From Hasllibacter sp. MH4015 (GTDB lineage Bacteria; Pseudomonadota; Alphaproteobacteria; Rhodobacterales; Rhodobacteraceae): 64,000 nt of DNA. Under the pieces are notes generated by a model, which ran no database searches, was not told the DNA's origin, and saw only the letters and a list, made by a program, of their open reading frames with translations. The translations under genes and the position numbers were made by a program. This document shows, one piece after another, positions 16,170 through 59,027 of the stretch (its first letter is position 1; each line of letters begins with the position of its first letter). The stretch is from positions 2,415,875 through 2,479,874 of the forward strand of contig NZ_JAHTBK010000001.1 of assembly GCF_020177575.1 (NCBI RefSeq), read 5' to 3'.

Positions 16170-18299
16170 CTAGCCGCGCGCCTCCCCGATCAGCCGCAGA
16201 ATGTCCCGCGCCGCAGACGGGATATGGGTGCCGGGACCGAAGATCGCCGCCACGCCCGCCCGTTTCAGGAAATCGTAATCCTGCTGCGGGATCACCCCGC
16301 CGCAGATCACCAGGATCTCGCCCGCGCCTTCGGCTTTCAACGCCTCGATCAGCTTCGGGGCCAGCGTCTTGTGCCCCGCTGCCTGGCTGGAAATCCCGAT
16401 CACATGGACATCATTGTCGATGGCGTCCTGCGCGGCCTCCTCCGGCGTCTGGAAGAGCGGACCCACGTCAACGTCAAAGCCGATGTCCGCAAACGCCGTC
16501 GCGATCACCTTCGCGCCCCGGTCATGGCCATCCTGGCCCATCTTCACGACCAGCATCCGGGGGCGGCGCCCTTCGGCTTCCGCGAATGCCTCCACCTCGC
16601 CCTGAATGGCTGCGAAATCCTCGTCACCTTCATAGGCAGAGCCGTAGACCCCCGCCAATGTCTTCACCTCGGCCCGGTGGCGGCCAAACACGTTTTCCAT
16701 CGCCATGCTGATTTCCCCCACTGTCGCGCGCGCGCGCGCCGCTTCGACCGCTGCGGCAAGCAGATTGCCGCCCTCCTTCGCGATCCGTTCCAGATCCTTG
16801 AGCGCCGCCGCGCAGGCCGCCGCATCGCGCTCCGCCCGGATCCGCTCCAGCCGCGCGATCTGGCTGTCGCGCACGGCGGCGTTGTCGATGTCACGGATGT
16901 CGATCGGATCCTCTCGGTCCTTGCGGTACTTGTTGACGCCGACGATCACCTCCTCGCCCCGGTCAATCATGGCCTGACGCCGTGCGGCACTTTCCTCGAT
17001 CCGCAGTTTCGGCAGGCCGGAGGCGACGGCCTTGGTCATGCCGCCCATCTCTTCCACCTCGTCCATCAGGGCGGTGGCCTTTTCGACCAGCTCGTTCGTC
17101 AGACTTTCGATGTAATATGAGCCTGCCAGGGGATCGACGACGTTGGTGACGCCGGTCTCCTCCTGCAAGATCAGCTGTGTGTTGCGCGCGATGCGGGAGG
17201 AGAAGTCGGTGGGCAGCGCGATGGCCTCATCGAAGCTGTTCGTATGCAGCGATTGCGTGCCGCCCAGAACCGCGCTCATCGCCTCGTAGGCCGTGCGCAC
17301 GACGTTGTTGTAGGGGTCCTGTTCCTGCAAGCTGACCCCGCTCGTCTGGCAATGGGTGCGCAGCATCTTGGAGCGTTCGGATGTCGCGCCGAAGTCGGTC
17401 ATCACGCGGTGCCAGAGCGTGCGGGCGGCGCGCAGCTTGGCGATTTCCATGAAGAAATTCATGCCAATGGCGAAGAAGAACGACAGGCGTCCGGCGAATT
17501 TGTCCACATCCATCCCCGCCTCGATCGCTGCGCGCACGTATTCGCGGCCATCGGCGATGGTATAGGCCAGCTCCTGCACCAGGTTCGCGCCCGCCTCCTG
17601 CATATGGTAGCCGGAGATCGAGATCGAATTGAATTTCGGCATGTTATCAGAGGTATAGCTGATGATGTCAGAGATGATCCGCATTGAGGGTTCGGGCGGG
17701 TAGATATAGGTGTTGCGGACCATGAACTCCTTGAGGATATCGTTCTGGATGGTGCCGGACAGGACCGCCTTGTCGTGGCCCTGCTCCTCCCCCGCGACGA
17801 TGAAATTGGCGAGGATCGGGATCACCGCGCCATTCATCGTCATCGACACGCTGACCTGATCCAGCGGAATACCGTCGAAGAGGATCTTCATGTCCTCCAC
17901 GCTGTCGATTGCCACACCGGCCTTGCCCACATCGCCCACGACACGGTCATGGTCGCTGTCATAGCCCCGGTGCGTGGCCAGATCGAAGGCCACAGACACG
18001 CCCTGTTGCCCGGCGGCCAGACCCTGCCGATAGAAGGCATTCGATTCCTCCGCCGTGGAGAAGCCCGCATATTGCCGGATCGTCCAGGGACGGCCCGCAT
18101 ACATCGTCGCTTTCACGCCACGGGTGAACGGGGCCTCCCCCGGAAGCGTGTCGACGTGGTCCAGCCCCTCAAGGTCGGCGGCGGTGTAGAGCGGTTTGAC
18201 GTCGATGCCTTCCAGCGTCTTCCACGTCAGGTCATCAAGCTTGCGCCCACGCAGTTCCTTTTCGGCCCGGTCACGCCAGGCGTCGGTCTTCTCCGTCAT
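16170..18299 (-). CDS. scpA: methylmalonyl-CoA mutase, large/single-chain
   Basis: A 709-residue adenosylcobalamin-dependent mutase that converts (R)-methylmalonyl-CoA to succinyl-CoA, the last step of propionyl-CoA assimilation. The TIM-barrel part has [22 protein letters not shown] and [11 protein letters not shown]. The C-terminal B12 domain has the base-off motif [13 protein letters not shown] and VICGGVIP. The start at 18299 matches the family N-terminus (MTEKTDAW). It overlaps the upstream sulfotransferase gene by 29 bases. Confidence 0.96.
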
Positions 18300-19185
18300 C
18301 TCTGGATCCTCTTCCATCCTCTGTCCGGGCTTCGATCTGCGTCGAAGGCGCGTCCAAGTCATCGGCAAACCCGCCCGCCCCGTTCCGGAGCCAGTGCAGG
18401 TCTTCGTCGTATTGGGCCTGAAGCGCCGCGCGTTCATCTTCTGTGAACGGTGCGAAGCGGCCATCGTCTGTCAGGTACGTGTCCGCATCGACATCGCAGG
18501 CCCGCAGGTAGTCGCGCAATGCGGGAACGTCGGGTCGGGCGTTGAGGGTGCGTGCATCGGGGGCGGGCGTCGCGATGTCGGTCAATTCAGACAACACGCG
18601 GTCGGGATGGGCGCCAAGCGCCTCATACGTCCACACGGCGATATGCGCGGAGGGCACGGCGCGCGCCACATCCTCCACCACATGCCGCCACCGGCGCGGC
18701 TGCGTGACGAGGTATTCGCGCAGACGATCCTTGGGCAGCGGCCCGGCCCGCAACAACCGGAAGGCAAGCGCGGAGGTCCACCAATCATCGTAGGCGCGCA
18801 GGCCAATCGCAATCGTCACCCGGTGCTTGCCGAACCCGCCCGCCAAGGTGGCAAGCCGCTGCCCCGCATCACGGTAAAGTGCCGTATCCTCAAGACAATT
18901 GCGCAGCGATCCCAACATGTTCTCATCACTCACGATCAGCCGGGTGATGCCGCGCTGGCGGGCCTGTTCGACGCGCATCGCCACGCGTTTGGCCATGCGC
19001 GGCATTTCCCCCGGGAAGGGCGTGTGGCGCGCGCCCATCGCCTGTCCGAACAATCCGCCGCGGGTGATTTTCGGCCCCCAATATCCACATTTCGCGTCGT
19101 GGAGCAGGGGGCGGTGATGGGCCAGGTGGGTCTGGAACGTCGTCGTCGCGGTGCGGTGGGCGCCCACATGCAAGATCACGTGCAT
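18271..19185 (-). CDS. sulfotransferase-like P-loop protein
   Basis: A 304-residue protein beginning [18 protein letters not shown], which resembles the PAPS-binding P-loop of sulfotransferase-fold proteins (HxGxHKTaTT). A downstream [12 protein letters not shown] and [12 protein letters not shown] fit the second phosphosulfate motif region. The C-terminal tail is charged and low-complexity. AAAGGACAG precedes the start. Its end overlaps scpA by 29 bases, so they may be co-transcribed. The acceptor substrate is unknown. Confidence 0.7.
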
Positions 19186-19330
19186 CTTCTGTCCTTTTCC
19201 GGCGGCGGAGGTCATCCGGTCACCAGAATGGGCAGGAATGGGTGAAGATCCGGTCAAGAAGGCGCTTTGTGATCTAAAAGGCTTCGCTTTGTCCGCGCCG
19301 CTTCCTATATCTGTCACAACTGGAGGAAAG

Positions 19331-19822
19331 ATGCGACCCAATCCCCTGATTTCATTGCTTTGCGCCGCGCTGCTTGCGCCCTTGCCCGCGCTTGCGCAGG
19401 ATGCCAGCGACGCGACCATCGCCATGGCCGATGACGCGCCCGACATAGTGGCCGAAGCGGTGGACCCGTTGACCCCGCGCAGTGCGGAGGGTCTGACGCT
19501 GGAGGAATTCCAGTGGATCGCCCGGCCCATCGTGGTTTTCGCCGACACGCCCGCCGATCCGAGGTTCGTGGAGCAGATGGAACTGCTGACCCAGCGCCCC
19601 GACGCCCTGTTGGAGCGCGACGTCGTGATCATCTTCGACACCGACCCCGCCGCACGGTCCGCAATTCGCCGCGCCCTGCGCCCGCGTGGGTTCTCGGTGG
19701 TGGTGGTGGCCAAGGACGGCGCCGTGGGGATGCGCCGCCCCGCCCCGCGCGACGTGCGCGAGATCATCCGCGCCATCGACAATTTCCAGCTGCGCCAGGA
19801 AGAGGTGCAGCGCGGCGGCTGA
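19331..19822 (+). CDS. DUF4174 domain secreted protein
   Basis: A 163-residue exported protein with signal peptide MRPNPLISLLCAALLAPLPALAQ. The mature part LEEFQWIARPIVVFADTPADPRF, then LLERDVVIIFDTDP and FSVVVVAKDGAV, matches DUF4174, a thioredoxin-like fold lacking the redox cysteines. Function is unknown. AGGAAAG precedes the ATG. It is divergent from the sulfotransferase gene. Confidence 0.82.
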   Translation: MRPNPLISLLCAALLAPLPALAQDASDATIAMADDAPDIVAEAVDPLTPRSAEGLTLEEFQWIARPIVVFADTPADPRFVEQMELLTQRPDALLERDVVIIFDTDPAARSAIRRALRPRGFSVVVVAKDGAVGMRRPAPRDVREIIRAIDNFQLRQEEVQRGG

Positions 19823-19831
19823 GCGATTTCC

Positions 19832-19860
19832 TTGCGTTTTGGGGTGATTTCCCCTATATT
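19832..19860 (+). promoter_or_regulatory. strong promoter upstream of a 24-codon ORF
   Basis: TTGCGT (19832-19837), a 17-base spacer, TATATT (19855-19860). Transcription would start near 19867 and reach the small ORF at 19901 after a leader of about 35 bases. Confidence 0.65.
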
Positions 19861-19900
19861 GAGGGTACCCAAAGGCGTCGCACACAAAGGAGGCGGAGAT

Positions 19901-19975
19901 ATGAAGAAAGAACCGACCATTCCGCTTACGCCGACCCCTGTTGGCGGTCGCGCCGGTCCGCGTCCCGGTTATTGA
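19901..19975 (+). CDS. candidate small protein, 24 aa
   Basis: ATG at 19901 is preceded by AAAGGAGGCGGAG, an almost ideal Shine-Dalgarno, and by a good promoter. The 24-residue product starts MKKEPTIPLTPTPVGG and ends with a Gly-Pro-Arg-rich tail and Tyr. It is too short for standard gene finders. Its last 50 bases overlap, antisense, the 3' end of the minus-strand gene at 19926. No family is recognised. Translation is inferred from the signals only. Confidence 0.5.
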   Translation: MKKEPTIPLTPTPVGGRAGPRPGY

Positions 19976-20594
19976 TCTCCAGCACGCGCTGCTCTGCCGC
20001 ATCCGGTCCGCCATCGGCGAAGGCGCGGATGACATCCAACGTATCCAACCCCTGCAGATAGGCCCGCTCGCGGGTGTGGAAGTAATCCAGATAGAGGCGA
20101 ATAAGCCGGGTCTGGTTCTGTCGCGTTGACGTTCTGCGTCGGCCCCTGCGGGGTGAAACCGGCACGTCTGCGCCGCGCAACGCCTCCGGGTTCCGAAGAT
20201 CCCGCGCCAATGCGGTCATCGAGGCGACCTGTCCGTAATAGGCGACCACCAGATCAATTGTCGACCGCGGCAACGTCTCGATCTCGCCCAGGATTGCCTC
20301 ATAGACCAGGTCGTGCCGCTCGTGAGCGATGAAGGGCCGGAACGACGGATCGGCCCGCATGCTTTTCACCAAGCCCGCCGCATGGCGTCTCGCCTTCCCG
20401 TCATCCCAGAACACGGCGATCGAATTGCGGATCTCGGCATAGATCGCCTTGTGATAATCCCGCATTTTCTCGGCCTTGAGCCGCCGTGCTTCAGCGCGGT
20501 TCTGGCGACCGTTCACGATCCAGCCGACCGCCAGAAACACGCCCGCGATCAGAGCCTGCCAGATGCGCGGATCAATGGCGGTGAGCCAGCTCAT
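19926..20594 (-). CDS. hypothetical membrane-anchored protein
   Basis: A 222-residue protein with one N-terminal membrane segment (IWQALIAGVFLAVGWIVNG) and a cytoplasmic helical domain rich in Arg and Glu. The segment AEARRLKAEKMRDYHKAIYAEIR is probably a coiled coil. I do not recognise the family. It lies 43 bases after pccA in the same direction and could be the last gene of that unit. The 3' end overlaps the candidate 24-aa gene on the other strand. Confidence 0.65.
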   Translation of the reverse strand: MSWLTAIDPRIWQALIAGVFLAVGWIVNGRQNRAEARRLKAEKMRDYHKAIYAEIRNSIAVFWDDGKARRHAAGLVKSMRADPSFRPFIAHERHDLVYEAILGEIETLPRSTIDLVVAYYGQVASMTALARDLRNPEALRGADVPVSPRRGRRRTSTRQNQTRLIRLYLDYFHTRERAYLQGLDTLDVIRAFADGGPDAAEQRVLEINNRDADRRDRQQGSA

Positions 20595-20637
20595 TCCGCC
20601 CCTCCCGCCCGATATCCGCGCAGATCCCGCATAAGGG

Positions 20638-22680
20638 TTACTCGAACTCCATGATCACATCGTCCACGGCCAGGCTGTCGCCCGCGCCTGCATTGATCTT
20701 GGCAACCACGCCCTTGCGTTCGGCGCGAAGGATATTCTCCATCTTCATCGCCTCCACGGTACAGAGCGCCTGCCCGTCCTGAACCTCCTGCCCCTCTTCC
20801 ACGTCGATTTTCACGACAAGGCCCGGCATCGGGCAAAGCAGCAGTTTCGAGGTATCGGGCGGCAGCTTCTCGGGCATCAGTTGCGCAAGCTCCGCCTGGC
20901 GGGGCGTGCGGACATGGACTTTCAGTTCCGCGCCACGGGTGCGCAGGCGAAACCCGCCGGGCAGCTTGCCGACCTTCAGAACCAGCTTTGTTCCATCGAC
21001 CGACAGCCGCGCCAGTTGATCGCCCGGAGTCCAGTCGCTGGCCACGCGCAGGGTCTTGCCGTCAATCGTGACGGTGGAGCCGTCGTGATCCGCCTCGATC
21101 ACCGCATTGAAGGATTGGCCCTGCAACGAGACGACCCAATCGGCGCCTACGCGACGTTCGTGGTTGTCCATCCGGCCCGAGACACGGGTGCGCCGGATCT
21201 CCGCAACGCGGTGCATGGCGGCGGCAGCGGCGGCCACGCGGACCAGATCGGCCTCTTGCAGCGTCACGCCTTCGAACCCGTCGGGATATTCCTCGGCGAT
21301 GAAGGCGGTCGTGATATCCCCGGACGCAAATTTCGGGTGGTCCATGACGGCGCTGAGGAAGGGCAGGTTGTGGCCGATCCCCTCCAACTCGAAACTATCG
21401 AGCGCCACGCGCATCGCCTCGATCGCGGCGGGCCGATCCGGGGCCCAGGTGCAGAGCTTGGCGATCATCGGGTCGTAATACATGGAAATCTCGCCGCCCT
21501 CGTAGACGCCGGTATCGTTGCGCACCGCCGTCTCGCCGCTGTCGGCATCGCCCTGCCATTTGCCGGTGTCCAGCAGCGGGCCTGCGGCGACTTCCGCCGG
21601 CGGGCGATAGCGGGTGAGCCGCCCAATGGACGGCAGGAAGTTGCGGTACGGATCCTCGGCGTAAAGGCGGGATTCCATCGCCCAACCGGTCAGTGTGACG
21701 TCGTCTTGTGCCATCTCCAGCGGCTGCCCCGCCGCCACGCGGATCATCTGTTCAACCAGATCGACGCCCGTGATCAGCTCAGTCACCGGATGTTCCACCT
21801 GGAGGCGGGTGTTCATCTCCAGGAAGTAGAAGTTCCGCTCACCGTCGACGATGAACTCCACGGTGCCCGCGCTGGTGTATCCCACGGCCTTGGCCAGCGC
21901 CACGGCCTCTTCACCCATGGCCTTGCGGGTCGCCTCATCCAGGAAGGGCGAGGGCGCTTCTTCGATGACCTTCTGGTTGCGGCGCTGGATGGAGCATTCC
22001 CGCTCCCCCAGATAGATCGCGTTGCCGTGCTTGTCGGCAAGGACCTGGATCTCGATATGGCGGGGCTGGGTCACGAACTTTTCGATGAACATGCGGTCGT
22101 CGCCAAAAGAACTGGCGGCCTCGTTCTTGGAGGCCTGGAAGCCCTCCGCCACCTCATCCTCGGACCACGCGATCCGCATCCCCTTGCCACCACCTCCTGC
22201 AGAGGCCTTGAGCATGACCGGATAGCCGATTTCGCCAGAGATCTTGATCGCCTCCGCCGCGTCCGCGATCAGGCCCATATGGCCGGGCACCGTGCTGACG
22301 CCGGCCTCCGCCGCGATCTTTTTCGACGTGATCTTGTCACCCATCTGTTCGATGGCCGATGCGGGCGGGCCGACGAAGGCCACGCCCTCGGCTTCCAACG
22401 CCTCCGCGAATGCCTTGTTCTCGGACAGGAAGCCGTAACCGGGATGGACCGCATCGGCACCGGTGTCGCGGATCGCGCCCATGATCTTGTCGATCACGAT
22501 ATAGCTTTCGGACGCCGCGGGCGGGCCGATATGCACCGCCTCATCCGCCATCTTCACATGCAGCGCGTTGCGGTCGGCGTCGGAATAGACGGCGACGGTG
22601 GGGATGCCCATGCGCTTGGCGGTCTTGATGACGCGGCAGGCGATTTCCCCCCGGTTTGCGATCAGCAGCTTGTTGAACAT
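20638..22680 (-). CDS. pccA: propionyl-CoA carboxylase alpha subunit (biotin carboxylase/BCCP)
   Basis: A 680-residue subunit that carboxylates its biotin with ATP and bicarbonate; PccB then transfers the carboxyl to propionyl-CoA. Domains in order are: biotin carboxylase (FNKLLIANRGEIACRV; ATP-grasp KASAGGGGKGMR; FLEMNTRLQVEHPVTE), a middle BT domain, and the C-terminal biotinyl domain with VEAMKMEN, where Lys is the biotin site. It is separated from pccB by six small genes on the same strand. Confidence 0.96.
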   Translation of the reverse strand: MFNKLLIANRGEIACRVIKTAKRMGIPTVAVYSDADRNALHVKMADEAVHIGPPAASESYIVIDKIMGAIRDTGADAVHPGYGFLSENKAFAEALEAEGVAFVGPPASAIEQMGDKITSKKIAAEAGVSTVPGHMGLIADAAEAIKISGEIGYPVMLKASAGGGGKGMRIAWSEDEVAEGFQASKNEAASSFGDDRMFIEKFVTQPRHIEIQVLADKHGNAIYLGERECSIQRRNQKVIEEAPSPFLDEATRKAMGEEAVALAKAVGYTSAGTVEFIVDGERNFYFLEMNTRLQVEHPVTELITGVDLVEQMIRVAAGQPLEMAQDDVTLTGWAMESRLYAEDPYRNFLPSIGRLTRYRPPAEVAAGPLLDTGKWQGDADSGETAVRNDTGVYEGGEISMYYDPMIAKLCTWAPDRPAAIEAMRVALDSFELEGIGHNLPFLSAVMDHPKFASGDITTAFIAEEYPDGFEGVTLQEADLVRVAAAAAAMHRVAEIRRTRVSGRMDNHERRVGADWVVSLQGQSFNAVIEADHDGSTVTIDGKTLRVASDWTPGDQLARLSVDGTKLVLKVGKLPGGFRLRTRGAELKVHVRTPRQAELAQLMPEKLPPDTSKLLLCPMPGLVVKIDVEEGQEVQDGQALCTVEAMKMENILRAERKGVVAKINAGAGDSLAVDDVIMEFE

Positions 22681-22807
22681 GGATTACGTCCCTTCGTCCT
22701 GGGCCGATGCGGCCCGCCCATGGCAAAAGAACCCGCCCGGGCCCATCGGCCCCGGCAGGTTCGAAATTCGATGTCTTCGACGGGAGCCTAGGGCCCCGGT
22801 GCGATCC

Positions 22808-23008
22808 TCAGCAGAGGTTAACGTCGTCGCAGAGCGCGCCCGCCGCCGCGCCGACGACCACGCCGGTCGCAACGCTGCCGCCCAGCACAGCCGTGCCGAC
22901 ACCGCCGGCCAGCGCGCCAACGCCTGCGCGTTCAAGGTCGGATGCGACGCATCCCGAAACGGCCAGCATGGCCGCGAAAAGTGCGGTGATGGAAAGTTTG
23001 GTGCGCAT
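22808..23008 (-). CDS. small lipoprotein with glycine-zipper character
   Basis: A 66-residue precursor with a lipobox (LAVSGC, Cys 20) and a mature region of alternating Gly/Ala/Val (GALAGGVGTAVLGGSVATGVV) resembling glycine-zipper membrane-associated lipoproteins, with two more cysteines at the end. The start at 23008 follows AGGAG at a slightly long distance. It lies upstream of pccA. An imperfect hairpin at 22727-22760 in the 127-base gap before pccA might terminate it. Confidence 0.75.
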   Translation of the reverse strand: MRTKLSITALFAAMLAVSGCVASDLERAGVGALAGGVGTAVLGGSVATGVVVGAAAGALCDDVNLC

Positions 23009-23065
23009 TTTGATGCGTCTCCTGTCGATTTGCCTCGTGTAACCGCTTGTACCGCATTTTCCCCC

Positions 23066-23074
23066 TGTGGATAA
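23066..23074 (-). promoter_or_regulatory. perfect DnaA-box 9-mer
   Basis: TTATCCACA on the minus strand, 58 bases upstream of the small lipoprotein gene. It is a single box with no cluster, so not an origin. DnaA could regulate the gene, or this may be chance. Confidence 0.4.
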
Positions 23075-23103
23075 GTCCGGATTTCCCGCAGCCGGATTTG
23101 GGC

Positions 23104-23139
23104 AAAAAAAGACGGTCGGTGGGATGACCCAGCCGACCG
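23104..23139 (-). terminator. strong Rho-independent terminator with T7 tract
   Basis: On the minus strand an 11-bp stem (CGGTCGG..TGGG with CCCA..CCGACCG, one bulged C, TCAT loop) is followed by TCTTTTTTT. It terminates transcripts coming from the 23310-23684 gene. The 170 bases between that gene and the terminator contain a second stem (GGTCGGCC/GGCCGAC) and form a structured 3' region. Confidence 0.85.
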
Positions 23140-23309
23140 CCATATAGGGGAAGGGTAACACGTCTTGTGGGTGTCGGCCGCATAAAAACAACTGGGGACA
23201 GTGGCCGACCTCTGCACCATGACAGGAATCGAATGGCCCGAAAGGGGCCCAATGGCAGGGGTGCGCATCTGCGCGCTCAACCGCTCATAAAGGTTACTGA
23301 CGGGCGAAT

Positions 23310-23684
23310 TCATGCCGATCGCCCCTCCCAGAACCCCGATCCGTCGAAGGCTTCGGGAAAAGACGCGCGGGCGCGGCTTTCATCGATCTGCAACAGCGCG
23401 TCATAGCTTTCGGCATCGAACGGATCTTCCGCCGCGATCACCTCGCGCCCGAACAGCCAGCTGAGCCGCCCGGCATCGAGATTGCCTCGCTCGAACGGTT
23501 CATCGCCGAAATAGAGCCACAGCGCCTCCATGAAGGCGGCGTCGGCGCGGCGGTCGGCGGGCCGTCTGTCGGCGTAGCGTTCCCGCGCGATCAGCTTCGT
23601 GGCGCCGCCCTTGTTGGCGCGCCTGATGGTGAAGGAATAGTCGCTGCTGGGAAGCCGCCCGGGAAATCCGCGATGCTTGATCAT
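23310..23684 (-). CDS. hypothetical protein
   Basis: A 124-residue basic-then-acidic cytosolic protein starting MIKHRGFPGRLPSSDYSF. It has no recognisable domain. RERYADRRPADRRADAAFMEALWLYFGDE is notable for charge. Start 23684 is preceded by GGGGGG, but that sits in the arm of a CCCCCG/CGGGGG hairpin, which could limit initiation. The frame is open far upstream without clear coding character. It could be part of the pcc region transcript, but has its own terminator. Confidence 0.55.
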   Translation of the reverse strand: MIKHRGFPGRLPSSDYSFTIRRANKGGATKLIARERYADRRPADRRADAAFMEALWLYFGDEPFERGNLDAGRLSWLFGREVIAAEDPFDAESYDALLQIDESRARASFPEAFDGSGFWEGRSA

Positions 23685-23710
23685 TGCGACGCCCCCCGAA
23701 CGCGGGGGAT

Positions 23711-23842
23711 ATACCGGACGAGACTGACGCCCCGTCCGGTTAGAGGGGATGTCCTGCTCGGGCACACTGGGGGATCGTGCCTCAGGACCTGCCGTATCGG
23801 CATGGGGGGTGTCTGCAAGTCCGCCCGTGCCGTTTTCTTCTT
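23711..23842 (+). ncRNA. candidate small RNA with orphan terminator
   Basis: Three consecutive stem-loops on the plus strand: ACCGGACG/CGTCCGGT (23713-23740), GTCCTG..GGCAC/GTGCC..CAGGAC (23751-23788), and a 12-bp stem with one mismatch at 23798-23832 followed by TTTTCTTCTT. No plus-strand gene lies upstream for 3.7 kb, so the terminator has no other user. A possible promoter is TTGCGA-N18-GATATA (23684-23713). It diverges from the 23310 gene. It matches no RNA family I know (not tmRNA, 4.5S or RNase P). The rest of the gap, 23843-24036, shows only a CAGCTGC/GCAGCTG stem. Confidence 0.5.
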
Positions 23843-24036
23843 GTTGTTGCCTCGTGGTGTGACCGAGCCTACTGGACGAATGCCAATGGACCCGGCCACG
23901 ATCCGAGGTACAGCTGCATTGGCGCAGCTGGGGCAAACGTTACACGGCTCGCGGAATTCTCCACAGGGGGTGCTGCAAAGATGGGCGGCGTGTGACTCGA
24001 ATGCATCACAAAGGTTGGATCGGGCCGTGTGGGACA

Positions 24037-24459
24037 TCACAGAAGCTCCCAGATGCAGGTGCCGTTGTCTTCGGTATAGGCCTCGATCGCCTGTCGAATG
24101 CCGGGGGCGGGCTCTCCGCGCACGAAGGGGGTCTGCATGACCTGCACGATGATGCGCGTCGGGCGCGGCTCCTTTTCCAGGGCCTCCAGCCCCCAGATCT
24201 CGCAAGCCCAATCGTGGTCCGAGACCTCGGCCACGTCCCGCCCCTCCGGCAGGGCGGGGTCGGTCACGCGCACCACGACCCAGGCATCGTTGTTGGGCTG
24301 GATCTCATAGACGACGTCGCAAAGCGTCAGGACCCGGCCCGATGGTGCAGTCAGCGCCTCGTCCGTCGTGCAGATCTCCGGCCCGCCGCGAGGCAACAGG
24401 AAGAAGACAGCAAGGCCCACGATGCAGAGCGCGAGGAGAAGGTAGACAAGGCGCATCAT
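24037..24459 (-). CDS. DUF6497-like membrane-anchored or exported protein
   Basis: A 140-residue protein with an N-terminal hydrophobic segment (LVYLLLALCIVGLAVFFLL) and a periplasmic domain containing APSGRVLTLCDVV, WVVVRVTDPAL and a C-terminal NGTCIWELL. The CIWE ending and the PSG-L-DVV pattern resemble DUF6497 proteins of Rhodobacteraceae, an attribution from memory. Function is unknown. Its ATG overlaps the cupin gene stop (24456-24459). Confidence 0.65.
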   Translation of the reverse strand: MMRLVYLLLALCIVGLAVFFLLPRGGPEICTTDEALTAPSGRVLTLCDVVYEIQPNNDAWVVVRVTDPALPEGRDVAEVSDHDWACEIWGLEALEKEPRPTRIIVQVMQTPFVRGEPAPGIRQAIEAYTEDNGTCIWELL

Positions 24460-24842
24460 GTCGGCGCGTCCTCCGGCGTGGTGGGGAAGTCGCCCGGCGC
24501 GGTGATCTCAATCAGCTCCATGTCGTCGGAATGGCGGACCTCGCGGTGGCGGATCCCCGGCGGCTGCAAGACGCAAGACCCTTCGCGCAGGATATGCTCG
24601 CCCGCGCCCTCGTACTCGAAGACCACCCAACCCTTCGTGACATAGACCAACTGGAAGTCGAGGTCATGGGAATGCCACGCGCCGGGGCTTTCCTCCCCCG
24701 GCACGGCGCGGATCACGTGGGCCCCGAACGCGCCCCCGGTGGCCGCGCCGATCTTGAGGTCGGCATATTCGAAAAACGCCCGCAGCCCTTCGCCCTGGAA
24801 CGGGCGGTCGTCGGCGTGGGTGATGGTGAGGGCGTGGGTCAT
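24456..24842 (-). CDS. cupin-domain protein
   Basis: A 128-residue single-domain cupin. Motif 1 is HSHDLDFQLVYVTKGWVVFEYEG, with HxH and a Gln/Glu-like ligand; motif 2 is GSCVLQPPGIRHREVRHSD. The metal ligands appear present. It could be a small-molecule enzyme or sensor, and the substrate is not predictable. It is translationally coupled to the downstream membrane protein by an ATGA overlap. Confidence 0.82.
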   Translation of the reverse strand: MTHALTITHADDRPFQGEGLRAFFEYADLKIGAATGGAFGAHVIRAVPGEESPGAWHSHDLDFQLVYVTKGWVVFEYEGAGEHILREGSCVLQPPGIRHREVRHSDDMELIEITAPGDFPTTPEDAPT

Positions 24843-24861
24843 GCCGCACCCCCGACCCGGG

Positions 24862-25125
24862 TCAGGATTTGCGCAGCGCCTCGATCAACTCGTCCTTGCT
24901 CATGTCCGAGCGGCCGTCGATCTCCAGTTCCTGCGCGCGATCGTAAAGCGCGTCCTTTGTCCATTCCTCGTAGGGCGGTGCCTTGCCGCCTTTCTTCGAC
25001 GGGTTCTGATCGTCGGAGGCCTGCGCATTGGCGATCCGCGCGGCCTTCTGTTTCGACGCCCCGTCCTTGCGCAGGGCTTCGTAGGTTTCGTCGTCCTTGA
25101 TGGACGGTCCGTGATCCTTGGTCAT
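24862..25125 (-). CDS. small Rho N-terminal-domain (SAP-like) protein
   Basis: An 87-residue protein. The N-terminal half (IKDDETYEALRKDGASKQKAARIANA) is that of small plasmid-stabilisation/DUF7218-type proteins. The C-terminal WTKDALYDRAQELEIDGRSDMSKDELIEALRKS is a Rho_N/LEM-like helix-extended-helix. It may bind nucleic acid. GGAAAGGAAAG precedes the ATG at 25125. Position between pccB and pccA suggests co-transcription, not necessarily shared function. Confidence 0.75.
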   Translation of the reverse strand: MTKDHGPSIKDDETYEALRKDGASKQKAARIANAQASDDQNPSKKGGKAPPYEEWTKDALYDRAQELEIDGRSDMSKDELIEALRKS

Positions 25126-25203
25126 GGCACTTTCCTTTCCATTCGAACGCACGGGCGCGCGCGGCGGTTCCGGAAGGGGCGGCGGCGGGGGCGGCGATCC
25201 GGC

Positions 25204-25551
25204 TCATGGCCGCCTCCGCGCATGTTTGATCCAGCGCGCGCGAAGATCGGGATCGTCAAGCATGTCGGCGATTGTCTCCGCCGCGCGTCGCGTCACCGGG
25301 CCATGGACCGCGCCACCGGCCAGCACGGCCATGCCGCCGTCCTGCGCGGTCACGCGAACGGCCGGGCAGAAGCCCCGCAACCGCTGCAACCGGCGCCACA
25401 TGTCCTGCCGGATCTGGTGGGCGAGGCGCGACCGGCTCAAATCCTCGCCTGGAATGAAGCTCAACTGCGCAAGATCGAACCGCACGTCGCGGGTGCGCGA
25501 CAGGGTCAGGGTCCGCTCATCGCGGGTGATATGCCATGCGTCGCGGGCCAT
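25204..25551 (-). CDS. hypothetical protein coupled to pccB
   Basis: A 115-residue arginine-rich cytosolic protein with HITRDERTLTLSRTRDVRFDLAQLSFIP and IRQDMWRRLQRLRGFCPAVRV. Its ATG overlaps the pccB stop as TGATG, so it is translated with pccB. I recognise no domain. In related genomes a small gene of this kind sits directly after pccB (recollection), which would suggest a carboxylase-related role. Confidence 0.7.
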   Translation of the reverse strand: MARDAWHITRDERTLTLSRTRDVRFDLAQLSFIPGEDLSRSRLAHQIRQDMWRRLQRLRGFCPAVRVTAQDGGMAVLAGGAVHGPVTRRAAETIADMLDDPDLRARWIKHARRRP

Positions 25552-27083
25552 CAGAGCGGGATGTTGTCGTGCTTCTTCCACGGGCGCGTCTGGCTTTTCC
25601 GCCGGAGCGCAGCAAAGGCCCGGCAGACGCGGCGCCGGGTGGAATGGGGCTGGATCACCTCGTCAATGAAGCCGCGTTCGGCCGCCACGAAGGGGTTGGC
25701 GAAGCGATCCTCGTATTCCTTGGTATGGGCCGCTATCCTGTCCGCGTCACCCAGATCGGCGCGGTGCAGAATCTCCACCGCCCCTTTCGCGCCCATCACC
25801 GCGATCTCCGCCGTGGGCCAGGCGTAATTCACATCCGCCCGCATGTGCTTGGAGGCCATCACCACGTAGGCCCCGCCATAGGCCTTGCGGGTAATCACCG
25901 TCACTTTCGGCACCGTCGCCTCGCCATAGGCGAAGAGGAGCTTCGCGCCGTGCTTGATGACGCCATCGTATTCCTGCGCCGTGCCGGGCAGGAAGCCCGG
26001 GACATCCACGAGGCTGAGGATCGGGATCTCGAAACAATCGCAGAACCGCACGAAACGGGCCCCCTTGCGCGCGCTGTCGATATCCAGAACCCCGGCAAGC
26101 ACCATTGGCTGATTGGCCACGACGCCGACCGTCTGTCCCTCCAACCGGATAAATCCGGTGATGATATTGCCCGCGAAATCCTCCTGAATCTCGTAGAAAT
26201 CGCCTTCGTCGGCGATCTTCTGGATCAGTTCCTTCATGTCGTAGGGCTGGTTCGGATTATCAGGGATCAGGGTATCGAGGCTTTCCTCGATCCGGTCGGG
26301 GCTGTCGAAGAAGGGCCGCACCGGCGGTTTTTCGCGGTTGCTGAGCGGCAGGAAGTCGATCAGGCGGCGCACCTCGTTCAGCGCCTCGACATCATTCTCA
26401 AATGCGCCATCGGCGACGGAGCTTTTCCGCGTGTGGGTCGATGCACCGCCCAGTTCCTCCGCGGTCACGACCTCGTTGGTCACGGTCTTCACCACGTCGG
26501 GGCCGGTCACGAACATGTAGGAGGAATCCTTCACCATGAAGATGAAGTCCGTCATCGCCGGGGAATAGACGGCGCCACCGGCGCAGGGCCCCATGATCAT
26601 GGAGATCTGGGGAACCACGCCCGACGCCTCGATATTGCGCTGGAAAACCTCGCCGTAGGCGGCCAGCGAGTCGACGCCTTCCTGGATGCGCGCGCCGCCG
26701 GAATCGTTGATCCCGACCACGGGCGCACCGTTCTGCATCGCCATGTCCATGATCTTGCAGATTTTCTGGCCATGGGTTTCCGAAACCGACCCGCCAAGCA
26801 CGGTGAAATCCTGGGAAAAGACGTAGACCTGCCGCCCGTTCACCGTTCCCCAGCCGGTCACGACCCCGTCGCCGGGCGGGCGGTTTGCCTCCATCCCGAA
26901 TTCCGTGGTGCGGTGCGCGACGAACATGTCGTATTCCTCGAAACTGTCCTCATCCAGAAGCAGCTCGATCCGCTCGCGCGCCGTCAGCTTGCCCTTGGAA
27001 TGCTGTGCCGCGACGCGTTTCTCGCCGCCGCCCATCCGCGCGTCTTCGCGGCGTGCATCCAGTTCCGCCAGAATATCATTCAT
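25551..27083 (-). CDS. pccB: propionyl-CoA carboxylase beta subunit (carboxyltransferase)
   Basis: A 510-residue carboxyltransferase moving the carboxyl from PccA-biotin to propionyl-CoA to form (S)-methylmalonyl-CoA. Landmarks are the N-terminal [19 protein letters not shown], the crotonase-fold oxyanion segments [16 protein letters not shown] and [12 protein letters not shown], and the C-terminal [14 protein letters not shown] and [14 protein letters not shown]. It is first in a minus-strand series, 76 bases from a TTTGCAAA operator, with an MFS gene divergent. Confidence 0.97.
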
Positions 27084-27158
27084 GTCCCACGTGCTCCCCT
27101 CGTCGCGTTGCGCGAACCTACACGGGCGCGCGGAGGCGGACCAGCTTTGTGTGGCATA

Positions 27159-27206
27159 TTTGCAAATCCATTACCGCAACCGTTCACAATTTTGCAAATC
27201 CGCAAA
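27159..27206. promoter_or_regulatory. PccR-type operators between pccB and the MFS gene
   Basis: TTTGCAAATCC at 27159-27169 and TTTGCAAATCCGCAAA at 27191-27206, 32 bases (about three helical turns) apart, in an A+T-richer part of the 192-base divergent intergenic region. The same motif occurs in front of pccR. R. sphaeroides PccR is known to bind TTTGCAAA-type repeats. Confidence 0.8.
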
Positions 27207-27275
27207 TCACGCTCGCACACAGGCCTGTTCGCCCGCGCACTGGACGACCCCGACCAAGAGGAATACGTCTGGGAC

Positions 27276-28493
27276 ATGAGCACGCACGTCCCGGTTCGGT
27301 TTCTCGACCGTTCCACACCTCCACACATCTTCACACTGATCGTGTTGACGGGCCTTGGCGCGCTGTCGATGAACATCTTCCTGCCGTCGCTGCCCGCGAT
27401 GACGACTTTCTTCGATACCGAATATCGCATCATGCAATTGTCCGTGTCGCTTTACCTTGGCGTGAACGCGGTGTTGCAGCTTCTGATCGGCCCGATCTCC
27501 GACCGGTTCGGGCGCCGCCCGGTGCTTCTTGGCGGGATCGTCATCTTTCTTCTGGCGACCGTCGGTTGCCTTGTGGCCGGCACGATCGAGGTCTTCCTGT
27601 TCTTCCGCATGATCCAGGCCGTGATCGTCGTGGGCCTTGTCCTTGGCCGCGCGGTGGTGCGCGACATGAATGACGAGGTCGAGGCCGCCTCCCAGATCGG
27701 CTATGTCACAATGGGGATGGCCATTGTTCCGATGATTGGTCCGGCCATTGGCGGCGCGCTGGACGAGACGTTGGGCTGGCAGGCGAATTTCTGGCTTCTG
27801 CTGATCCTCGGGGTGCTGGTGCTGGCGCTGATCTTCCGCGATCTGGGGGAGACGGCGCAGACCACGTCGGCCAGCTTTGCCGCGCAATTCCGCGAATATC
27901 CCGAACTCTTCGCATCACGCCGGTTCTGGGGCTATTGCGCCTGCGCGGCCTTTGCCTCGGCCTCGTTCTTCTCCTATCTCGGCGGCGCGCCTTACGTGGG
28001 ATCGGAGGTGTTCGACCTGTCCGCCGCGCGTGTGGGCCTCTATTTCGGCGCGCCTGCCTTGGGATATTTCTTCGGAAACGGCATCTCGGGGCGCTATTCC
28101 ACGCGGCTCGGCATCAACACGATGATCCTTTGGGGTGCGGTGCTGACCTCGGCGGGCCTGCTGATCTCCACCGTCATCTTCTTGCTCGGCCACGGCTCGG
28201 CCCTCGTGTTCTTCGGCTTCACCACCTTCGTGGGCCTCGGCAACGGAATGGTCCTGCCCAACGCGACATCGGGCATGTTGTCGGTGCGCCCGCACCTGGC
28301 CGGAACCGCATCCGGTCTGGGCGGCGCGATCATGCTGGCCGGCGGTGCAAGCCTGTCCGCACTGGCCGGTGTGGTGCTGACCGATGGGGCGGGCGCGATG
28401 CCGCTTCTGCTGATGATGCTGAGCGCCTCGGCCCTGGGCGTTCTGGCGATCCTCTACACGATCCGGCGCGAGGCGCGGGTGTCCGGACCCTAG
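27276..28493 (+). CDS. Bcr/CflA-type multidrug MFS transporter
   Basis: A 405-residue protein with 12 predicted membrane segments. Motif A is intact as GPISDRFGRRPVLLGG in loop 2-3, and MSTHVPVRFLDRSTPP forms the cytoplasmic N-terminus. This is the DHA1 drug-efflux subgroup. It is divergent from pccB, sharing the PccR-operator intergenic region, and immediately precedes pccR. It may export an organic acid or drug; the substrate is unknown. AGAGGA precedes the ATG at a slightly long spacing. Confidence 0.87.
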   Translation: MSTHVPVRFLDRSTPPHIFTLIVLTGLGALSMNIFLPSLPAMTTFFDTEYRIMQLSVSLYLGVNAVLQLLIGPISDRFGRRPVLLGGIVIFLLATVGCLVAGTIEVFLFFRMIQAVIVVGLVLGRAVVRDMNDEVEAASQIGYVTMGMAIVPMIGPAIGGALDETLGWQANFWLLLILGVLVLALIFRDLGETAQTTSASFAAQFREYPELFASRRFWGYCACAAFASASFFSYLGGAPYVGSEVFDLSAARVGLYFGAPALGYFFGNGISGRYSTRLGINTMILWGAVLTSAGLLISTVIFLLGHGSALVFFGFTTFVGLGNGMVLPNATSGMLSVRPHLAGTASGLGGAIMLAGGASLSALAGVVLTDGAGAMPLLLMMLSASALGVLAILYTIRREARVSGP

Positions 28494-28521
28494 GCGCGTT
28501 CGGGCTCCCCTTGCCAATCCA

Positions 28522-28556
28522 TCTGCAAATCCGCAAACCTTGTTCTGCAAACTCGC
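28522..28556 (+). promoter_or_regulatory. PccR-type operators in the pccR leader
   Basis: TCTGCAAATCCGCAAA (28522-28537) and TTCTGCAAACTCGC (28543-28556), whose TCTGCAAA cores are 22 bases (about two turns) apart. They share TYTGCAAAYYCGC with the pccB promoter sites. This suggests that PccR controls its own gene. Confidence 0.7.
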
Positions 28557-28569
28557 GGGACACACACCC

Positions 28570-29964
28570 ATGGCCACCCAGAAACTCTATGTCGGCGCCA
28601 AGCTGCGGTCCGTGCGCACGCGCCTTGGCCTGACCCAGAAGGATTTCGCCGCGAAGCTCGGGATTTCCCTGCCCTATCTCAACCAGATGGAGAACAACAA
28701 CCGCCCCCTCTCCACCACCGTCCTGCTCGGGCTCGCCCAGGATTTCGGCGTCGACATCACGGAGCTTTCGGCCTCCGATACCGACCGCCTCGTCTCCGAC
28801 ATGCGCGAAGCGCTGGCCGACCCGCTTTTCGCAGACACCCAGCCCCATCTGGCGGACCTGCGCCTGGCTGCCGCCAATGCCCCGTCGCTTGCGCGCGCCT
28901 TCCTCGACCTGCACCGCGCCTACCGCCAGACCCACGAACGCCTCGCCTCACTGGACGAGGCCCTGGGCCAGCAGACCTCCGCCACCGCCTCCCCGTGGGA
29001 GGAAGTGCGCGATTTCTTCCACTATACCGACAATTACATCGACGCCGTGGACCGCGCCGCCGAACGCTTTGCCAAGCGCGCGACCGGGGATCTGGCGGCG
29101 CACACCTCGGCGGTTCTTGCGGACCGCGGCATCACGATCCGCCACGTCGCCGGGGACGGCGTACGCCACTATGATCCGGACACGAAAACTCTGACCCTCA
29201 GCCCCCGCGCCGCGCCCGAGACCCAGCGGTTCCAACTGCTCCACCAATACGCGCTTCTGGGCCAGCACGAATTGATCGAGGCCACGCTGGACCTCGCCCG
29301 GTTTCAATCCGAAACGGCGCGGGAAATTGCGCGGATCGGGATGGCGAACTATTTCGCGGGCGCCTGCCTGATGCCCTATGCCCGCTTCACGGAGGCGGCC
29401 CAGGACACCCGCCATGATCTGGAGCGTCTGTCCATCCAGTTCTCCGCCTCGATCGAGCAGATCGCCCACCGCCTCTCCACCCTGCAGCGGCCCGGGTCCA
29501 AGGGCGTGCCCTTCTTCTTCGCCCGGGTCGATCAGGCGGGGACCGTCACCAAGCGCCACTCCGCCACGCGGCTGCAATTCGCCCGTTTCGGCGGGGCATG
29601 CCCCCTGTGGAACGTGCACCAGGCGTTCGAGACGCCGGGCCGCTTCCTGCGCCAATTGGCCGAAACGCCCGACGGCGCGCGCTATGTCATCCTGGCCCGC
29701 GACGTCTCCAAATCCGGCGGCGCCTGGGGCCGCCCGACCCGGCGCTACGCGATCTCGCTCGGCTGCGAAGTCCGACACGCCGCCGATCTTGTCTATGCCG
29801 ACGATCTGGATCTCGACCAGGATGCCGCGTTCCGGCCGATCGGGATCTCGTGTCGGATCTGCGAGCGGACCAATTGCCACCAGCGCGCGGTCCCGCCACT
29901 GGAACGGCAACTCAGTGTCGATCCCAACCGCCGCGGCACCCTGCCCTACGAGGTCGCACCCTAG
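28570..29964 (+). CDS. pccR: short-chain fatty acyl-CoA regulator PccR (XRE family, ScfR class)
   Basis: A 464-residue regulator. An N-terminal XRE helix-turn-helix (LRSVRTRLGLTQKDFAAKLGISLPYLNQMENN, residues about 10-45) is followed by an IrrE-like central region and the C-terminal ligand domain with SCRICERTNCHQRAVPPL, the Cys signature of ScfR proteins. In R. sphaeroides PccR activates propionyl-CoA carboxylase genes. Start 28570 is supported by the family N-terminus. Matching operators lie before pccB and before this gene. Confidence 0.9.
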   Translation: MATQKLYVGAKLRSVRTRLGLTQKDFAAKLGISLPYLNQMENNNRPLSTTVLLGLAQDFGVDITELSASDTDRLVSDMREALADPLFADTQPHLADLRLAAANAPSLARAFLDLHRAYRQTHERLASLDEALGQQTSATASPWEEVRDFFHYTDNYIDAVDRAAERFAKRATGDLAAHTSAVLADRGITIRHVAGDGVRHYDPDTKTLTLSPRAAPETQRFQLLHQYALLGQHELIEATLDLARFQSETAREIARIGMANYFAGACLMPYARFTEAAQDTRHDLERLSIQFSASIEQIAHRLSTLQRPGSKGVPFFFARVDQAGTVTKRHSATRLQFARFGGACPLWNVHQAFETPGRFLRQLAETPDGARYVILARDVSKSGGAWGRPTRRYAISLGCEVRHAADLVYADDLDLDQDAAFRPIGISCRICERTNCHQRAVPPLERQLSVDPNRRGTLPYEVAP

Positions 29965-30038
29965 GCCATGCCGGATATTGCCCCCCGCCCCCCTGCCCGT
30001 TACCGTCTCAGCGATCAGACGACACAGGACCCCGCCCC

Positions 30039-58503: not shown

Positions 58504-58718
58504 GTGGCACCACGGGCGCGCGCCCTTGTCCCGGCTCTCGGGCGGGCCTATGTCGCTTCCCGACGGGTCTGCCCAATTCGTGCCTGTGGCAACATTCCGG
58601 TGGCCTTAAGCAAATCCGAGGGAGCTGGCTCTGGCCGGGCCGTGGTTCGGTTATCCGGCGCCCACCTGTATATACAGGTCCTCGGGAATAAACGCCTCTA
58701 CGGTTGCGGCGGTCCCCG

Positions 58719-59027
58719 TCACCCTTCCTGCCGATCGGCGCGCACCCTGATGGGGACGGTTGAGGCCACGCGCTCTGGCGCGCGCGTTCCGCCGCCCTGA
58801 TCGTCGTCCTTCGCCAGGGCCATGATGCGGATGCCGATCTGGACCGACCCGAAGGTGATCCAGCACAGGATCGTCAGCACGATCACGGCGAGCATCCCTT
58901 CGGAGGTGTGCGTCACGAGGTGCCAGAGATTGCCGACATTCAGCACCAGAAGCCCGGCGACGAAGGCGATGGCGACCAGCCCGCCCCAGGCGGCGTGGCG
59001 CAAGATGAACCGGATGTGATCGGGCAT
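58719..59027 (-). CDS. hypothetical two-segment membrane protein
   Basis: A 102-residue protein with two hydrophobic segments (AAWGGLVAIAFVAGLLVLNV; MLAVIVLTILCWITFGSVQIG) and a hydrophilic C-terminal tail rich in Asp, Gly and Arg. The N-terminus MPDHIRFILRHA looks typical. The family is unknown. It is divergent from the 59198 gene, with 170 bases between and no clear motif in that spacer. Confidence 0.7.
   Translation of the reverse strand: MPDHIRFILRHAAWGGLVAIAFVAGLLVLNVGNLWHLVTHTSEGMLAVIVLTILCWITFGSVQIGIRIMALAKDDDQGGGTRAPERVASTVPIRVRADRQEG

Follow-up and report, generated by a model that had tools for sequence, protein, structure and literature searches.

What lies between the DUF6497 and DUFX genes of Hasllibacter sp. 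MH4015, and on which strand is it read? The question was raised by an earlier note on a 64,000-nucleotide stretch of this genome (hereafter the window), which had placed a probable new small RNA with a possible promoter and a Rho-independent terminator of its own on the plus strand. The surrounding run of genes is on the minus strand and forms the propionyl-CoA carboxylase (pcc) operon, with pccB upstream and pccA downstream of the feature. We asked which strand the conserved signals fit, how far they extend in the family, and what the reading frame that crosses them contributes.

A conserved locus within the pcc operon

Two minus-strand genes flank the feature:

24037..24459, minus strand: DUF6497 gene, the upstream neighbour (Pfam PF20107)
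23310..23684, minus strand: DUFX gene, the downstream neighbour

DUFX is our own name for a gene that gave no match in searches of Pfam and NCBIfam and that is present in 276 of 295 family genomes. When 61 genomes were searched at the DNA level, the region proved to be kept in all 13 genomes of the source genus, and 7 of the 48 genomes outside the genus matched only the DUFX end of the query. We refer to the 13 genomes as the Roseicyclus group, as six of the seven records with the exact core pattern carry the label Roseicyclus. Their alignment contains 303 gap-free columns in one run, made up of invariant blocks and variable loops.

No covariance model of Rfam release 15 matched positions 23200-24300 with E ≤ 5, and a known RNA family was rejected on this ground. 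No report of the element or of the arrangement around it was found among open-licence papers on pcc and Rhodobacter sRNAs, UpsM, DUF6497, nested units, coupling, short ORFs that act against Rho termination, or the Roseicyclus transcriptome. Elsewhere in the window, a 6S RNA match is seen at 58563-58719 on the plus strand (50.3 bits compared to a gathering score of 46.4).

Structure and strand of the element

Read on the minus strand, the conserved region comprises the following parts, from upstream to downstream:

23992..24009, minus strand: conserved block GTGATGCA-NNN-GAGTCAC upstream of the RNA, with 15 of 18 columns invariant in the 13 genomes and partly kept in a second genus
23959..23978, minus strand: direct repeat TTGTGGAAA / CTGTGGA in the -35 region, its first copy degenerate in the window
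23937..23944, minus strand: -10-like box TGTAACGT, assigned by conservation, TATCNT in the second genus
23911..23930, minus strand: hairpin H1, AGCTGC-N6-GCAGCT, seven pairs, 100% of cells paired in 17 sequences
23850..23908, minus strand: hairpin H2, CCTCG..GTG.CCGGG / CCCGG.CAC..CGAGG
23833..23849, minus strand: purine-rich stretch, the complement of the U-tract claimed for the plus strand
23798..23832, minus strand: hairpin H3, the stem claimed as plus-strand terminator, with the invariant loop TTGCAGAC
23751..23788, minus strand: hairpin H4, two stems, with two-sided changes in two pairs
23713..23740, minus strand: terminal hairpin H5, 12 bp, resembling the 3' hairpin of a lipoprotein unit found elsewhere
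23707..23932, minus strand: candidate non-coding transcript of ~220 nt, with putative ends

Folding favours this strand over its complement. The mean fold z-score over the 13 genomes was -4.56 for the minus strand and -2.67 for the plus strand, and RNAalifold gave -95.8 kcal/mol compared to -78.8 kcal/mol. In a minus-strand model with five hairpins, 95.4% of 754 cells are paired in the 13 genomes, and two-sided changes occupy 26 cells, against 8.5 after shuffling and 1-7 when the model was slid along the alignment. Conserved minus-strand structure with compensatory changes is thus present, and the variation of the core pairs described below is one-sided, via G-U. Cells that read as G-U or A.C on the minus strand distinguish the two strands further: G-U and A.C cells number 10 and 0 in H1, 22 and 2 in H2, and 23 and 0 in H5 (13 genomes), whereas H4 (0 G-U, 5 A.C) and H3 (11, 17) do not favour the minus strand. 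H3 alone does not single out this strand and leaves a little room for a plus-strand terminator at its position. Based on fold z-scores, covariation, and the asymmetry between G-U and A.C cells, the minus (operon) strand is favoured, and the feature is better read as a structured RNA element of this strand than as a plus-strand sRNA.

The hairpin H5 itself is found in 13 of 13 genomes; its end, counting the last stem base, reads TATAT in the window and TTTTT in five of the 13. Upstream of the RNA, roughly one helical turn separates the TGTGGA copies of the direct repeat in the -35 region. The joint repeat pattern occurs once per genome in 11 of the 13 genomes and is absent from the other two, including the window's own genome. 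A TGTGGA-repeat regulon was rejected, since the pattern is confined to this locus within the 13 genomes. We also dropped readings of the upstream blocks as a DnaA box and a CcrM site, because GANTC is not kept throughout the second genus.

Conservation of the core beyond the Roseicyclus group

A covariance model built from 13 sequences (R1) was used to search 394 genomes of the family, roughly one for each genus. Five genomes matched at E ≤ 0.01, namely two in the group, one in another genus with a full-length match, and two with fragments of H5 only. In this second genus, five of five genomes match at the same locus with at least the RNA core (E 1.6e-22 to 2.1e-4, two of the matches being weak with E ~2e-4). 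The gene order DUF6497-RNA-DUFX-lipoprotein-pccA holds there as far as the contigs reach; one contig begins inside the element, and DUF6497 falls outside it. In the second genus, H3 and the purine run are either absent or replaced, and the outer CCTCG/CGAGG pairs of H2 are not kept throughout. H5 is kept in three of the five genomes, and H3-H5 are all missing in two.

The core common to both genera consists of a promoter-like block (TTGTGGAAA..CTGTGGA, ~17 nt, TATCNT or TAACGT), H1, and H2. On the minus strand, 238 of 238 cells of this core are paired in 17 sequences, including the window. Five variable core pairs change only via G-U when read on the minus strand, and the same changes would be A.C on the plus strand. 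A model of the core (R2) matched 21 of the 394 genomes at E ≤ 0.05. Among these are three new genera with E ≤ 3e-8, in which the match is located inside the DUF6497-DUFX spacer. Fifteen of the 21 are weaker (E 7e-4 to 0.044) and were treated as chance matches; six were inspected and had no DUFX within their 1.5 kb flanks.

A small lipoprotein gene at the same place in other genera

We compared the spacer in 98 loci, about one per genus, which were taken from the earlier hits and the best DUFX matches and are not a random sample. DUF6497 was recognised in 75 of them; ten with spacers shorter than 60 nt were left out, and 65 were counted. The median DUF6497-DUFX spacer among these is 433 nt long. 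A loose pattern search (one locus per genus) revealed a small lipobox ORF in the frame of DUFX in 59 of the 65 spacers, mostly of 40-50 aa (MSKxxK...AAC...EPVYTGKYK) and often preceded by an AGGAG-like site. A GC-rich hairpin follows the lipoprotein in 50 of the 59 loci. These 3' hairpins lie on average 2.0 sd (terminator score) and 2.8 sd (fold) beyond shuffles, and tails with at least four T are present in only 5 of 59. Termination at the 3' hairpins may be weak, since few of them have a U-run (5 of 59 loci and 5 of 13 group genomes).

The 5' ends can be compared in the 53 genera with a coupled start, i.e., an ATG overlapping the DUF6497 stop. At offset 126 from this ATG, which is H1's place, 71% of the hairpin cells are paired where the background is 38% (sd 5.6), and this offset ranks first among 200. 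The hairpin is fully paired in only 21 of the 53 genera; each of its positions is filled by several types of pair, and its G-U cells outnumber the A.C cells 45 to 18. By alignment, H1 of the group is also found at offset 126, with the exception of the window, where an 18-nt deletion brings H1 nearer to the start. By eye, a TATNNT-like box begins ~13 nt before this hairpin in many loci, and the TGTAACGT box appears to line up with these boxes. The purine stretch appears to correspond roughly in position to the ribosome site and start codon of the lipoprotein in other genera, and the offsets suggest that the two are homologous.

A further sequence, CAANATNTTGCG, is shared by 30 of the 65 loci (locus L016 and 29 others), always at the same distance behind the DUF6497 stop (offset 9, counted from the coupled ATG). 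It is near-palindromic in some genera (CAACATGTTG) and might be the site of a regulator. The window spacer is without that part and lacks CAANATNTTGCG.

A lipoprotein query gave no match below E = 0.1 in the 13 group genomes, and no relic of the gene was found. Given the hairpin at H1's place and the 3' hairpin, the nested unit of the other genera shares similar 5' and 3' ends with the Roseicyclus RNA. Its position and end hairpins suggest that the group lost the coding sequence of the lipoprotein and kept and elaborated the transcript. The window element is accordingly best read as a nested lipoprotein unit without its coding sequence, i.e., as a candidate minus-strand RNA of ~220 nt.

These comparisons also bear on whether the element is a separate RNA at all, or instead a leader acting in cis, of the attenuator or riboswitch-like type, for DUFX and the pccA genes further downstream. 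The element lies directly upstream of DUFX on the same strand, its terminal hairpin stands just before the DUFX start codon, and synteny is fixed, as would be expected of a leader. In other genera, however, the 5' part precedes the lipoprotein ORF and the 3' hairpin comes after it, and H5 has been lost in two of the five second-genus genomes. We regard a leader as unlikely, if a serious contender; it is also compatible with a nested unit, as the two are not exclusive.

An open reading frame bridges the spacer

The whole element is crossed by an unannotated reading frame on the same strand:

23681..24037, minus strand: bridge ORF 1, 118 aa, whose ATG overlaps the DUF6497 stop (TGATG) and whose stop overlaps the DUFX ATG (ATGA)

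All 17 sequences from two genera, the window among them, have this frame open, and indels within it are in frame. The ORF is 78-126 codons long where the coupled start is kept; genome L010 is without that start. Across the 65 genera the bridge frame is free of stops in 62, compared to 1 and 1 for the other sense frames and 14, 3, and 2 for the antisense frames, and each of the remaining three loci has a single in-frame stop. In the part of the spacer that precedes the lipoprotein (59 loci, mean 231 nt), there is one stop in total in the bridge frame compared to 125 and 185 in the others. The DUF6497 stop reads TGATG or TAATG in 53 of the 65 genera, and among the ten short-spacer loci DUFX itself starts on the DUF6497 stop in four. 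Overall, the bridge ORFs have a median length of 146 aa (range 25-366).

Such a frame suggests an ordinary, fast-evolving small protein gene, with a Cys-rich N-terminus in the group (LCGKxCG..C), that fills the spacer and to which the RNA structure is secondary. In line with this, the frame is open, with in-frame indels, in all 17 sequences, it is open in 62 of the 65 genera, and its pN of 0.20 is close to the 0.26 of DUF6497. The codon statistics of the 13 genomes weaken this reading. The pN/pS ratio of the bridge frame is 0.71, compared to 0.39 for DUF6497 and 0.13 for DUFX (an automatically chosen upstream-ORF control had given 0.38 before the comparison was redone with DUF6497 itself). Substitutions are spread nearly evenly over the codon positions, the mean BLOSUM62 score of changes is -0.98 compared to -0.11 for DUF6497 and +0.87 for DUFX, and GC content is flat over the codon positions (0.60/0.60/0.60, whereas DUF6497 has 0.68/0.47/0.73). 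At 0.69-0.71, the ratio of the bridge frame is the lowest of the six frames (0.81-1.12 for the others), and a weak constraint on the peptide is possible.

Codon usage in the N-terminal motif also speaks against a protein. The best-kept N-terminal stretch, CAA NAT NTT GCG, keeps the same offset in 30 of 65 loci; in 32 loci chosen by amino-acid pattern it varies in first and almost never in third codon positions, so that DNA rather than peptide seems to be kept. Moreover, the frame overlaps the lipobox ORF in 59 of 65 loci, and the peptide has no NCBIfam match. A sequence search for relatives of the peptide outside the genus gave matches in 3 of 294 other family genomes (E ~5e-4, 29-33% identity). 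In the 13 genomes, bridge ORF 1 shows no clear pattern of protein-like evolution, and we consider an ordinary protein gene here quite improbable.

Within the 13 genomes, 14% of within-column shuffles equal the observed avoidance of stops, i.e., there is no extra avoidance in the bridge frame. Evidence that openness may be under selection comes from the cross-genus comparison.

Signals on the plus strand

The letters on which the plus-strand proposal was built are as described. Three hairpins are seen at ~23713-23740, 23751-23788, and 23798-23832, followed by GTTTTCTTCTTG, and the statement that no plus-strand gene lies within 3.7 kb upstream agrees with our inspection by eye of ORFs of at least 80 aa, in which none was convincing after an ORF ending at 19822. 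The region is not plainly intergenic as had been assumed, since a coupled reading frame spans it. The letters of the promoter pair are present as well (TTGCGA at 23684-23689, 18 nt, and GATATA at 23708-23713) but are not conserved: TTGCGA, which overlaps the DUFX start codon, occurs in 1 of the 13 Roseicyclus-group genomes, and GATATA in five, with AATATA in two more. A consensus promoter scan of 18000-30000 reported no promoter-like site, with 1.9 expected. The proposed terminator is absent from the list of a terminator scan of the same region (12 listed, 8.5 expected); its 11-nt loop exceeds what the scan allows.

The plus strand of 23690-23860 folds no better than its dinucleotide shuffles (z = -0.27; 79 of 200 shuffles as stable or more), and for the 238-nt element in the window z is -0.61 on the plus strand compared to -4.4 on the minus strand. 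Loss of the stems in close relatives had been named beforehand as refuting the sRNA; the stems are kept, with a better fit to a minus-strand RNA. In the third hairpin 87.7% of helix cells pair in the 13 genomes, and TTTCTTCTT is found in 13 of 13 and TTTTCTTCTT in 12 of 13 genomes. The U-tract claimed after this hairpin (TTTTCTTCTT) is the complement of the conserved purine run, and in the second genus this segment is absent or replaced.

An intrinsically terminated plus-strand sRNA of ~130 nt (23711-23842), or else a terminator on this strand that keeps antisense transcripts from entering the promoter region, has three points in its favour. All 13 genomes keep the third hairpin and TTTCTTCTT, H3 read on the minus strand has 17 A.C compared to 11 G-U cells (the A.C cells are wobble pairs when read as plus-strand RNA), and the mean plus-strand z over the 13 genomes is -2.67. 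This reading is nevertheless very unlikely, as the window's own plus strand folds like shuffles, the -35 box is found in 1 of 13 genomes, the wobble pairs of H5, H2, and H1 fit the minus strand, the second genus has H3 and the pyrimidine run either absent or replaced, and TTTCTTCTT is invariant including its C positions, unlike a free U-tract. The plus-strand sRNA is not supported by the fold z-scores, the promoter scan, the asymmetry of G-U and A.C cells, and the conservation of the promoter boxes. On present evidence its strand, boundaries, promoter, and terminator were wrong, and what holds of the interpretation in the earlier note is a conserved structured RNA element between these genes. 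The sRNA finding was ordinary in kind and most likely made on the wrong strand.

Gene overlaps from pccB to pccA

Two further ORFs of the bridging type are found in the window:

24839..25207, minus strand: bridge ORF 0, 122 aa, with 4-nt overlaps at both ends
22684..23313, minus strand: bridge ORF 2, 209 aa, with an ATGA overlap with the DUFX stop, ending 3 nt before pccA

Starting from pccB, the junctions in the window read TGATG, ATGA three times, TGATG (bridge ORF 1), ATGA, and ATGA (bridge ORF 2), with the last 3 nt before pccA; the TGATG at pccB assumes that the next gene starts at that ATG. Stop-start overlaps of the -4/-1 type are thus present at the junctions of the window, the last being +3.

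Bridge ORF 2 spans the whole DUFX-pccA spacer and has a small lipoprotein-like gene inside it in another frame. This spacer had been intended as a negative control and behaved as a second case. In 33 loci, its +1 frame is open in 15, compared to 7 and 1 for the other sense frames, and contains 60 stops compared to 141 and 144. Among 16 sequences of the spacer, ten are open in the +1 frame. In four more, including the window, an ORF runs in frame 0 and has one stop, a TAA located six bases upstream of pccA, and of the remaining two one has another frame open and one a single stop. Bridge ORF 0 contains the DUF7218 gene (24862-25152) in another frame. Its frame is open in three of three genomes in which both flanking genes were found; as at least one of the two was not found in 10 of the 13 genomes, bridge ORF 0 may not be general.

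A proposed model for ribosome passage across a nested unit

We think it probable that a nested minus-strand unit is overlaid here by a bridge ORF that lets ribosomes pass between DUF6497 and DUFX. This explanation takes in the conservation, the strand bias of the structure, the synteny, the openness of the frame, and the non-protein-like change in the 13 genomes, and we infer from these how transcription, termination, and re-initiation would proceed and for what reason the arrangement would be selected.

The nested unit between DUF6497 and DUFX would consist of the promoter-like block, the 5' hairpin H1, a structured body, and the 3' hairpin H5. In most of the sampled Rhodobacteraceae loci, the unit at the same place also encodes the lipoprotein, mostly of 40-50 aa. 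At the locus in the Roseicyclus group and the second genus the coding sequence of the lipoprotein was not found, and the unit without it would leave a candidate non-coding RNA of ~220 nt, in the window from ~23932 to 23707. A short nested mRNA would start near H1; in most sampled genera it would make the lipoprotein and end at the 3' hairpin, and in the Roseicyclus group the short transcript would fold as an RNA that does not code.

Ribosomes that finish DUF6497 on the long operon mRNA would re-initiate at TGATG and translate through the nested promoter, hairpins, and terminator. While the unit is being translated, its hairpins and Rho sites would be unable to halt RNA polymerase, which would prevent termination or polarity, and the ribosomes delivered by the bridge ORF to DUFX would re-initiate there. 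An inserted gene unit of 430 nt would break the coupling and the bridge ORF would restore it, so that its selected property appears to be the passage of ribosomes.

A broader form of this model would apply to the bridge ORFs of the pcc operon in general. With little or no constraint on their peptides, they would be selected for translatability and laid over separately transcribed small genes (the lipoprotein, DUF7218, and the Roseicyclus non-coding RNA), and a gap-free flow of ribosomes from pccB to pccA would override nested terminators and couple the subunits. For this general form we see the case as evenly balanced.

Relation to known systems and implications

In leader-peptide attenuators such as trpL, translation of a peptide decides whether a hairpin terminates transcription. 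Translation of the bridge peptide would decide hairpin termination here too; in contrast to trpL-type leaders, the bridge ORFs are mostly longer, coupled at both ends, and located inside an operon. PccA and PccB are the subunits of a heteromeric complex.

According to excerpts from two papers, overlaps are enriched among subunits of heteromeric complexes, and coupling by re-initiation needs overlaps or very short distances and is nearly abolished at ~20 nt (PMC10666635, PMC6728339). The junctions from pccB to pccA in the window resemble this termination-reinitiation, being of the -4/-1 type with the last at +3, but what these excerpts describe are gene pairs, whereas the partner here is a spacer-filling, little-constrained ORF over a nested unit (PMC6728339, PMC10666635).

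UpsM is an sRNA from the 5' leader (268 nt) of the dcw cluster of Rhodobacter sphaeroides, as its abstract describes (PMC5089854). Like the element, it is a structured operon-strand RNA of the Rhodobacteraceae with a terminator-like hairpin before the next gene; it belongs to another locus and precedes the first gene, whereas the element is located inside the operon (PMC5089854). For UpsM, both termination and cleavage by RNase E have been reported, whereas the element here is a candidate predicted from sequence, and the abstract mentions no bridging ORF, whereas the spacer here has one (PMC5089854).

The conserved RNA element lies inside an unusual arrangement that is widespread in the family. 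If our explanation is true, frames that gene finders would discard as unprotein-like keep translation and transcription coupled across inserted genes. The locus would then make it possible to test directly whether selection can act on coupling apart from the peptide, and would suggest a rule for finding other bridge frames. It would also point to a possible route from a small protein gene to a non-coding RNA without breaking the surrounding operon.
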